Positions 24,899 to 31,216 of a stretch of DNA of 36,623 nt are shown here, piece by piece; positions within the stretch are counted from its first letter, which is position 1; each line of letters starts with the position of its first letter. The DNA lies in assembly GCA_017936845.1 (NCBI GenBank), contig JAGBES010000001.1, positions 75,026 to 111,648 on the forward strand, written 5' to 3'. A program made the translations under genes and the position numbers. Origin of the DNA: Bacilli bacterium (GTDB taxonomy: Bacteria > Bacillota_I > Bacilli_A > RF39 > UBA660). The notes below the pieces were generated by a model. It was given only the letters and a program-made list of their open reading frames with translations, was not told where the DNA came from and ran no database searches.

Positions 24899-24913
24899 TA
24901 TATGGGTGATAGT

Positions 24914-25231
24914 ATGAATCAAATAGTACAATATGGAATAATAATATTATTATTAATTATAATAGCTATAGCAATCATAAAATCAAAAAGAAAAGATTTT
25001 AAAATTGAAATTAATAAATTAGTTTCATATTTAGGTGGAAAAGATAATATAGTTAGTTATGAAGTTAATAAATCAAGATTTATAGTTACTCTTAAAAATG
25101 TAAATATTGTAAATAAAGAAGGAATACAAAAAATGGGTGCTAGAGGAATTGTTGAAATTGATAATCAATTAAAGATTATATTAGGAGAAAATGCTAATGT
25201 ATTAAAAAAACATATTGATGAATTAAAGTGA
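24914..25231 (+). CDS. Membrane-anchored PTS EIIB-like protein lacking the phospho-cysteine
   Basis: 105 aa from ATG 24914; the earlier ATG at 24902 overlaps the SD GGGTGAT and is rejected. One N-terminal membrane helix (about 5-25), then a cytoplasmic domain that lines up with glucose-family PTS EIIB: SYLGGKDNIVSYEVNKSRFIVTL against the usual LGGKxNIxxxxxCxTRLRVxx, and MGARGIVEIDNQLKIILGENANVLKKHIDEL against the usual LGAxGVV..GxxxQxIxG. Where EIIB carries its phosphorylated Cys this protein has Asn; the following Arg is kept. It therefore cannot take part in the usual Cys phosphotransfer and may be a regulator or sugar-phosphate sensor. No EIIC, EIIA or HPr gene is near. Confidence 0.7.
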   Translation: MNQIVQYGIIILLLIIIAIAIIKSKRKDFKIEINKLVSYLGGKDNIVSYEVNKSRFIVTLKNVNIVNKEGIQKMGARGIVEIDNQLKIILGENANVLKKHIDELK

Positions 25232-25252: not shown

Positions 25253-25269
25253 TTCGACAAAATTCGACA
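25253..25269 (+). promoter_or_regulatory. Two tandem 0A boxes (Spo0A-binding motif) upstream of the sensor kinase
   Basis: TTCGACA at 25253-25259 and again at 25263-25269, exactly 10 bp apart in the same orientation, matching the Spo0A target (complement TGTCGAA). A partial reverse copy TGTCGAG lies at 25289-25295 next to the kinase SD. Confidence 0.75.
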
Positions 25270-25303
25270 TAAAAAAAATGTATTATTATGTCGAGGTGAT
25301 TAA

Positions 25304-26533
25304 ATGAATCTATTTCAAAACGTATTACTAGATATAATATTAATATTATTTCCTATGATTTTATTTTTATTATATAATGCTTATAATGAAGTTTATGATT
25401 TAAAGAAAAGTGATTTATGTTTAGATTTTGCTATTATAACTAGTTTTTATTTGGTTTTAACATTTAAACCTGATGGTTATTCATATCCTTATTTAATGAT
25501 GAATGTTCCATTAGCTTTAGCTTATTTAAAAAATAAGAATAAGAGTATTTTAATTTTATCAGTTTTATGTTTTATTACATTAATGGGAAAATATAATATT
25601 CCAGCATATTACTATATAATAGAATATACTATGCTATATATACTATATAAAGTGATGGATAAATTTACATTTGTAAATTTATTTATAACTTTAAATATAT
25701 TTTTTTATTTATTATATGAAGTATTGGAAAAACCATATTTGTTTGGTAATAATTCTTATATTCCAAATGCTTTAACTGTATTAATTCCTTTTATTATAGT
25801 AACATATATTATTATGTTTACATTTAAAAAAGCAAGTACTATAATTACTTTTCATAAAGATAGTAAAAAAACCCAAGATGAAAAAGAATTAAGACTTTCT
25901 TTATTTAAAATAACACATGAAATAAAAAATCCTATTACAGTTTGTAAAGGATATTTAGATATGTTCGATTTTGATGATATAAAAAAGAGTAAAAAATATA
26001 TAAGAATAATAAAAAATGAAATAAATAGAGTTTTAATATTGTTAGAAGATTTTTTATCAATAAATAAAATAAAAATAGAAAAAGATATTATAGATATTAA
26101 TTTACTATTGGAAGAGATGACAAATAGTTTTTTACCAATACTAAAAGAAAAAAATATAGATAAAATTTTTAATATAAGTAAAGATGAATTGTTTATAAAT
26201 GCTGATTATAATAGATTAAATCAAGTATTTATAAATATAATGAAAAATAGTATAGAAGCAATAACAGATAATGGGGTTATATGTGTATTTTTAAAGAAAA
26301 ATAAAGATAATATTGAAATTCATATCGAAGATAATGGTGTTGGAATGGATAAAGAAGAATTAAAAAAAATAAAAGAACCATTTTTCACAACAAAAAAACA
26401 AGGTAGTGGCTTAGGCGTATATTTATCTAGACAAATAATTGAAGCACATGGTGGAAATATAGAATATGTATCAAAAAAATATATAGGAACAAAAACAATT
26501 GTAACACTACCTTATGAAGAAATAGGAATATAA
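25304..26533 (+). CDS. Membrane sensor histidine kinase, KinB-like
   Basis: 409 aa. The first about 175 residues hold six or so hydrophobic segments with little extracellular loop, as in KinB-type sporulation kinases that sense membrane signals. Dimerisation/phosphoacceptor H-box: His205 in ITHEIKNPITVCKGYLDMF. ATPase domain: N-box NQVFINIMKNSIEAI, G1 box EDNGVGMD, F-box EPFFTTKKQGSG, G2 box SGLGVYLSRQIIEAHGG. It should autophosphorylate on His and pass phosphate to a response regulator; the only receiver-domain gene in the window is spo0A, 5 kb downstream. SD GAGGTGAT three bases before ATG 25304. Two 0A boxes upstream suggest control by Spo0A. Partner assignment is inference. Confidence 0.85.
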   Translation: MNLFQNVLLDIILILFPMILFLLYNAYNEVYDLKKSDLCLDFAIITSFYLVLTFKPDGYSYPYLMMNVPLALAYLKNKNKSILILSVLCFITLMGKYNIPAYYYIIEYTMLYILYKVMDKFTFVNLFITLNIFFYLLYEVLEKPYLFGNNSYIPNALTVLIPFIIVTYIIMFTFKKASTIITFHKDSKKTQDEKELRLSLFKITHEIKNPITVCKGYLDMFDFDDIKKSKKYIRIIKNEINRVLILLEDFLSINKIKIEKDIIDINLLLEEMTNSFLPILKEKNIDKIFNISKDELFINADYNRLNQVFINIMKNSIEAITDNGVICVFLKKNKDNIEIHIEDNGVGMDKEELKKIKEPFFTTKKQGSGLGVYLSRQIIEAHGGNIEYVSKKYIGTKTIVTLPYEEIGI

Positions 26534-26565: not shown

Positions 26566-26594
26566 TTGAAAATAAATAAAAAAAGTTATATCAT
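26566..26594 (+). promoter_or_regulatory. Probable promoter of the pilin-pgk-tpiA operon
   Basis: TTGAAA (26566-26571), 17-bp spacer, TATCAT (26589-26594). Confidence 0.55.
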
Positions 26595-26619
26595 ATTTAT
26601 ATATGAAATAGGTGATATG

Positions 26620-26991
26620 ATGAAAAATGAAGGTTTTACATTAATAGAATTAATAGCTCTTTTAGGATTAATATCAATTATTATATTAATTGGAGCGCCT
26701 AGTTTAATAAATCAAATTGAATCAATGAGAAATAAAAGCTATAATAATTTTATTGGTGATATATGTTTAGCTAGTGAATCTTATATAAATCATAATAGCG
26801 ATATAGAAGGTATAGAAAATTTTAAGAATGCTAATGATACAATTACAATAACAGCTGGTGAATTAATGAATAAAGGATACATAAAAAGTAATATAAAAAA
26901 TCCTAAAACAGATACTAAGATTAATTCAAGTGATATAATTACTGTTAAATTAAATAGTGACATGACTTATAGCTGTTCTTTAAATAGTTAG
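26620..26991 (+). CDS. Small type IV prepilin-like protein
   Basis: 123 aa from ATG 26620, which lies three bases after GGTGAT (26611-26616); ATG 26617 is immediately upstream and in frame but too close to the SD. Prepilin leader MKNEG followed by FTLIELIALLGLISIIILIG, with Glu at position +5 after the cleavage site. The mature part is about 118 residues, a normal pseudopilin size, and ends with a Cys (YSCSLNS). Another Cys is at DICLASES. No assembly ATPase, platform protein or peptidase gene is in the window. It is separated from pgk by only 8 bases and probably co-transcribed with it, an unusual pairing. Confidence 0.8.
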   Translation: MKNEGFTLIELIALLGLISIIILIGAPSLINQIESMRNKSYNNFIGDICLASESYINHNSDIEGIENFKNANDTITITAGELMNKGYIKSNIKNPKTDTKINSSDIITVKLNSDMTYSCSLNS

Positions 26992-31120: not shown

Positions 31121-31137
31121 TTCGACAAAATTAGATA
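31121..31137 (+). promoter_or_regulatory. 0A box upstream of spo0A, with a degenerate second copy
   Basis: TTCGACA at 31121-31127 is a perfect 0A box. Ten bp downstream TTAGATA (31131-31137) matches 5 of 7 positions. The geometry is the same as upstream of the kinase gene. Confidence 0.65.
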
Positions 31138-31171
31138 TTTTTTACTCTAGAAAAATATATGTAGTATGTTG

Positions 31172-31177
31172 TATAAT
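31172..31177 (+). promoter_or_regulatory. Possible -10 element of spo0A
   Basis: TATAAT at 31172-31177 without a good -35 at the expected distance; only a weak TAGAAA lies 18 bases upstream. This would fit a promoter needing an activator. Confidence 0.45.
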
Positions 31178-31216
31178 TGATGTATCGTAGTAAGCAGTAT
31201 AGGAAAGGAAGATAAT

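Follow-up and report, generated by a model that had tools for sequence, protein, structure and literature searches.

In Bacillus subtilis, a dimer of Spo0A~P enables RNA polymerase at spoIIE and spoIIG, promoters with wide spacing in which a −35-like element covered by a 0A box lies 21 and 22 bp, respectively, from the −10 element. The genes sigE and sirA are also activated by Spo0A in this organism. RF39, to which the DNA studied here belongs, is an order of Bacilli that is associated with the gut and has not been cultured. It is predicted to be spore-forming, with a regulation markedly unlike that of Erysipelotrichales, which lack the sporulation sensor kinase known from the Bacillus model (PMC10868615). 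Spo0A~P of B. subtilis raises the expression of its own kinases by an indirect loop: it inhibits AbrB, upon which kinA increases via sigma-H and kinB is derepressed, and the deferral of sporulation depends on feedback on kinase expression (PMC3269414). At B. subtilis comK, with its multiple Spo0A sites, Spo0A~P acts with dual sign, activating first and repressing later; activation works by antagonising Rok, and the sites carry one or two mismatches (PMC3297582). For clostridia, the accessible sections of two studies describe orphan kinases, such as CBO1120 and CD2492, for which phosphorylation of Spo0A in the absence of Spo0F and Spo0B is either proposed or demonstrated, and these sections report no 0A box at the kinase genes (PMC2530871, PMC4028888). 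In the same sections, direct phosphorylation of Spo0A is shown for an orphan kinase of C. botulinum (PMC2530871), and the transcripts of CD1492 and CD1579 are altered in a C. difficile spo0A mutant (PMC4028888).

The locus described here lies in a window, i.e., the whole stretch of DNA analysed, of 36,623 nucleotides; its features are compiled in Table 1. The preliminary description had reported two perfect TTCGACA motifs exactly 10 bp apart (start to start, + strand) directly upstream of a kinase gene, a partial inverted copy next to the Shine-Dalgarno sequence and, as the only other perfect TTCGACA of the window, a copy upstream of spo0A. All of this is confirmed by the window sequence. The second box is separated from the TATTAT hexamer by an AT-rich spacer of 11 bp, and the inverted copy TGTCGAG overlaps the Shine-Dalgarno sequence GAGGTGA. 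Transcription of the kinase gene probably starts around position 25293, which would leave a leader of only about 11 nt before the ATG at 25304. The box belonging to spo0A is situated about 90 bp ahead of the spo0A start codon, and a degenerate TTAGATA (31131-31137) follows it at a distance of 10 bp.

Table 1 Features of the kinase and spo0A upstream regions (positions within the window)
Feature	Position	Strand	Remarks
0A box 1, TTCGACA	25253..25259	+	perfect; occupies the −35 location; 21 bp from its end to the −10
0A box 2, TTCGACA	25263..25269	+	perfect; 10 bp after box 1; 11 bp from its end to the −10
−10 element, TATTAT	25281..25286	+	5/6 to TATAAT; from sequence; position kept across the family
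Partial inverted 0A box, TGTCGAG on the + strand	25289..25295	-	6/7 to TGTCGAA; possible repressing site
Shine-Dalgarno sequence of the kinase gene, GAGGTGA	25293..25299	+	from sequence
Membrane sensor histidine kinase, 409 aa, orphan, KinB-like catalytic core	25304..26533	+	domains, fold and sequence search
Single 0A box upstream of spo0A	31121..31127	+	recurs before spo0A across the family
spo0A, 252 aa	31217..31975	+	TIGR02875, E 7e-79

The gene preceding the kinase promoter (24902-25231) encodes a membrane-anchored protein of 109 aa with a PTS EIIB-like domain, a possible signal partner. This neighbourhood is conserved, as the end of the gene (VEIDNQLKIILG...) directly precedes the promoter of the kinase in many genera. 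A terminator scan from this upstream gene to the boxes scored nothing, although AAGTGATAATATCACTTTTTTT is visible immediately ahead of them. The gene downstream of the kinase (26566-26991) resembles those for the pilins ComGC and ComGD, at scores under the NCBIfam cut-offs.

A search of 145 genomes of the family, nearly all from different genera, provided 89 kinase orthologs for analysis, most of which share 35-50% protein identity with the window kinase. When a tandem was defined by at least 12 of 14 matches within 250 bp upstream, it was present before 77 of the 89 orthologs, compared with 0.067% of cases when these regions were Markov-shuffled. Named genomes, among them UBA660, Candidatus Faecisoma and uncultured Bacilli, several of them from gut samples, were scanned separately and yielded 54 loci outside the first set, and 49 of these passed as well; all genomes in both counts are metagenome assemblies, and those that are related are not independent. 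The expectation that the sites would be conserved in relatives is thus borne out. The remaining 12 of the 89 orthologs stayed below 12 matches, and in at least one of them the contig ends before the start of the gene is reached. Of the 77 tandem-bearing orthologs, 62 have a perfect box 1 and 44 a perfect box 2, and apart from the boxes and the −10 element the promoter sequence has diverged. All hits listed by a search at the level of the order belong to the same family. Across the 145 family genomes the tandem pattern TTCGACANNNTTCGACA has 121 matches, while the reversed tandem used as a control has none; in the window's own genome the pattern occurs once, at the kinase. In one relative (G097), several tandem hits (L097, L098, L100, L141, L142) appear to stem from a dispersed repeat carrying TTCGTTCGACAAAATTCGACA and do not look like promoters.

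The spacing within the promoter is conserved: a hexamer with at least five of six matches to TATAAT lies exactly 11 bp after box 2 in 52 of the 77 orthologs and, in the second set, in 36 of the 49 loci with a tandem. Where a clear −10 element is present, the gap between box 1 and this element is 21 bp in 47 of 70 orthologs and 31 bp, one helical turn more, in nine. The distance to the ATG, on the other hand, varies from 13 to 91 bp (sd 11). The sharp peak at 21 bp together with the varying distance to the start codon identifies box 1, the 21-bp gap and the −10 element as the rigid unit. The same gap stands out family-wide, since 33 of the 150 matches listed for TTCGACA-N(4-26)-TATAAT fall on 21 bp, whereas the other gaps average about five each (binomial P about 1e-14, from related genomes that are not independent). 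A consensus sigma-70 scan called no promoter at the kinase −10 element and found no −35 element at a spacing of 16-18 bp; as its overall counts were no better than those of shuffles, it was used just for this absence. Box 1 shows the arrangement of spoIIG and spoIIE, where a 0A box takes over the −35 position and some 21-22 bp separate it from the −10 element. The boxes of spoIIG are called weak in the title of Baldus 1994 (cited in PMC3485338), whereas those of the present locus are perfect and precede a kinase gene. While the preliminary description had left the sign of regulation open, the resemblance of the 21-bp gap to the spacing in spoIIE and spoIIG and the fixed distances of 21 and 11 bp to the −10 element now favour activation of the kinase gene.

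On this basis, the pair at 25253-25269 would be the site through which Spo0A~P activates a promoter of the sigma-A type. Box 1 would take the place of the −35 element at a distance from the −10 element that is probably too large for RNA polymerase alone. Most likely, Spo0A~P binds both boxes as a head-to-tail dimer, along the same face of the DNA, makes a bridge to sigma-A and probably lets the polymerase use the kinase promoter, as it does at spoIIG and spoIIE of B. subtilis. The outcome would be direct positive feedback, in which the kinase generates Spo0A~P and Spo0A~P in turn more kinase. We consider it probable (roughly 0.72), judging from the sequences compared, that in the uncultured RF39/UBA660 lineage the gene for the probable Spo0A kinase is under direct activation by Spo0A~P. 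As in B. subtilis, Spo0A~P would raise the expression of its own kinase; the loop is indirect there, whereas here the sites reside in the kinase promoter itself and Spo0B was not found.

The regulator that would bind these sites is encoded in the same genome. The Spo0A protein has a receiver and a Spo0A_C domain and scores over the cut-off of the curated model, and a 21-residue region around its recognition helix differs from that of B. subtilis Spo0A (1lq1) only outside a core of 13 residues. The 7-bp core of the 0A box is TGTCGAA/TTCGACA (PMC3485338), so that two perfect cores and a cognate Spo0A with a known recognition helix occur together. In the genome containing the window, comK, cse60 and recU are found behind single or imperfect tandem sites. 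In the family, spo0A itself is preceded by tandem or gap-21 sites, and such sites also precede sirA, agrB and a sigma factor gene in relatives and sigE in one of them (G110), where the register again resembles that of spoIIG and spoIIE. The 21-bp register is repeated at sigE, sirA and cse60. A set comprising spo0A, comK, cse60, sigE and sirA is hard to explain by a regulator other than Spo0A, and these genes, among others recovered, appear to form a coherent Spo0A regulon. Together with conservation over about 80 genera and the near-identical recognition helix, these known targets support the original reading of the motifs as tandem 0A boxes, to which Spo0A putatively binds. Spo0A, SpoIVA and ComK were found in most of the family. 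Of four genomes in which Spo0A is missing, two still have comK boxes that match at 12-13 of 14 positions; these genomes may be incomplete.

Several further observations were made on genes associated with 0A boxes. In the family, spo0A carries a different conserved leader, TTCGACAAAACTAGCTAATTTTTNCTCTAG (31121-31200 in the window), well ahead of a TATAAT. Two adjacent spo0A genes occur in two genera (L171, G028:C32; L149, G001:C31), the second copies being 69% and 52% identical, respectively, to the window Spo0A. In several genera, AgrB-like genes, related to peptide quorum sensing, are preceded by tandem 0A boxes (L087, L090, L110 and similar loci). A small membrane protein recurs behind 0A boxes (L003, L114, L413, L416, L422, L424, and also the window's own genome), in some cases with a weak match to the SPOR domain. 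In two genera, arrays of 0A boxes or sites with the 21-bp gap accompany Bro-N/DinD-like genes (L115, L116, L118, L409, L410), and genes for BadF/BcrAD-type ATPases follow TTCGACA-21-TATAAT in three (L412, L415, L423).

The window kinase combines HisKA and HATPase_c domains (Pfam) and has a conserved H-box, HExKNP. In the predicted fold, six to seven N-terminal helices lead into the DHp hairpin, while a hydropathy scan gave fewer clear segments. Its designation as KinB-like holds for the catalytic core, for which sporulation kinase B (3d36) is the second-best match in the PDB (E 1.5e-27), but not for family membership: ThkA scores higher, the 25 NCBIfam families listed for the protein include no model for kinB, and KinD, with 103.6 bits, does not reach its cut-off of 775. 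A fold search agrees, as 3d36_A was retrieved with a TMt of 0.78 and its score is equalled or exceeded by those of other types of kinase. KinB-like is therefore a description of the protein.

In the genome, which is about 88% complete, no orphan histidine kinase other than this one was found. Of the remaining kinases, two are hybrids, two are encoded next to OmpR-type regulators, and one, an AgrC-like protein, also has a regulator as its neighbour. Spo0A, in turn, is the only output regulator found in this 88%-complete genome without an adjoining kinase, and the two genes are 5 kb apart. Spo0B was not found in the window's genome; weak sub-threshold matches in three relatives fall inside the kinase orthologs themselves and were rejected as candidates. 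A single orphan kinase, a single orphan output regulator and no Spo0B point to direct phosphorylation of Spo0A, similar to what is described for the clostridial orphan kinases. By elimination, the window kinase is most likely the phosphate donor to Spo0A, in a draft whose completeness of about 88% leaves room for a further orphan kinase or for a phosphorelay protein. By hand count, a Spo0A match is also present in 84 of the 89 kinase-bearing genomes. Conversely, about 40 genomes of the family have Spo0A but no strong match to the window kinase, which cannot therefore be the universal Spo0A kinase of the family.

The arrangement of boxes could in principle be explained in other ways. The preliminary description had judged chance improbable because perfect TTCGACA is so rare in the window. 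For single sites this argument had to be dropped: six of 100 window shuffles contain at least three copies, the number present in the window itself, and the 1.12-Mb genome holds 21, close to the roughly 23 expected from window shuffles. The reversed single pattern is commoner (120) and hence hardly suited to control for composition where single sites are concerned. A high genome-wide frequency, named as counter-evidence in the preliminary description, thus applies to the single boxes but does not extend to the tandem. Counts of single boxes therefore match what a low-complexity coincidence in an AT-rich genome would give, but the tandem behaves differently, as it is kept across about 80 genera, occurs once in the genome and is never met in reversed form, so that coincidence can practically be dismissed as its origin. 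Spo0A~P bound to the pair might still repress the kinase gene, for example by blocking polymerase, and thereby establish negative feedback. The sites are located ahead of the −35 region and inside it, the third, inverted copy covers the presumed transcription start, and at B. subtilis comK the Spo0A site R1 overlaps the −35 element and represses (PMC3297582). However, the kinase promoter offers no usable −35 element at 16-18 bp that could be blocked, and the inverted copy is confined to a subclade. Moreover, sigE, sirA and cse60 share the register of 21 bp, and the first two of these are activated by Spo0A in B. subtilis. We consequently regard repression through the pair as improbable. Only slightly less improbable is a feed-forward arrangement, in which Spo0A controls the kinase and the kinase serves another regulator. 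Phosphotransfer from the kinase to Spo0A is putative, and not only KinB but also ThkA and enzymes of the WalK type are among the solved kinases closest in sequence; against this stand the pairing of the sole orphan kinase with the sole orphan output regulator within 5 kb and the co-occurrence of the two proteins in nearly all kinase-bearing genomes.

Direct activation by Spo0A~P through the tandem can be extended, rather than replaced, by a role for the inverted copy. In the subclade of the window, the tandem would activate at low and the inverted box, lying over the start site, repress at high Spo0A~P, capping the loop and producing a pulse of kinase. The motif TGTCG is found at the exact offset in nine of 81 rows of a quick tree, and eight of these belong to a single clade of ten genera that includes the window (branch support 93). 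Behind the boxes, GTCGA was observed 12 times against 1.06 expected. The inverted box is hence real but local, being restricted to eight of the ten genera of this clade and one other row. Sites serving both activation and repression by Spo0A are known from comK (PMC3297582), which is a likely target here too, and by this analogy a function of the copy as a brake is conceivable, albeit speculative. On the other hand, the copy overlaps the Shine-Dalgarno sequence, part of which is constrained anyway, a lone box with six of seven matches may be weak, and most of the family lacks it. Dual control of the kinase is accordingly a rather doubtful proposition.

Taken further, entry into sporulation in this lineage, whose genomes are reduced, might be governed by a minimal two-gene switch, consisting of an orphan kinase and Spo0A, both with 0A boxes, operating without Spo0F and Spo0B. 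The kinase would be subject to direct positive feedback and, within one clade, also to a brake placed over the start of transcription. This is a tentative proposal, somewhat easier to entertain than dual control. If it is true, the indirect loop of B. subtilis would be one of two wirings for kinase feedback. The promoter rule TTCGACA, 21 bp, TATAAT recovers a seemingly coherent Spo0A regulon by sequence alone, and the finding nominates a kinase for sporulation in RF39. Feedback on kinase expression, which times commitment in B. subtilis (PMC3269414), is suggested to be wired directly in these bacteria.
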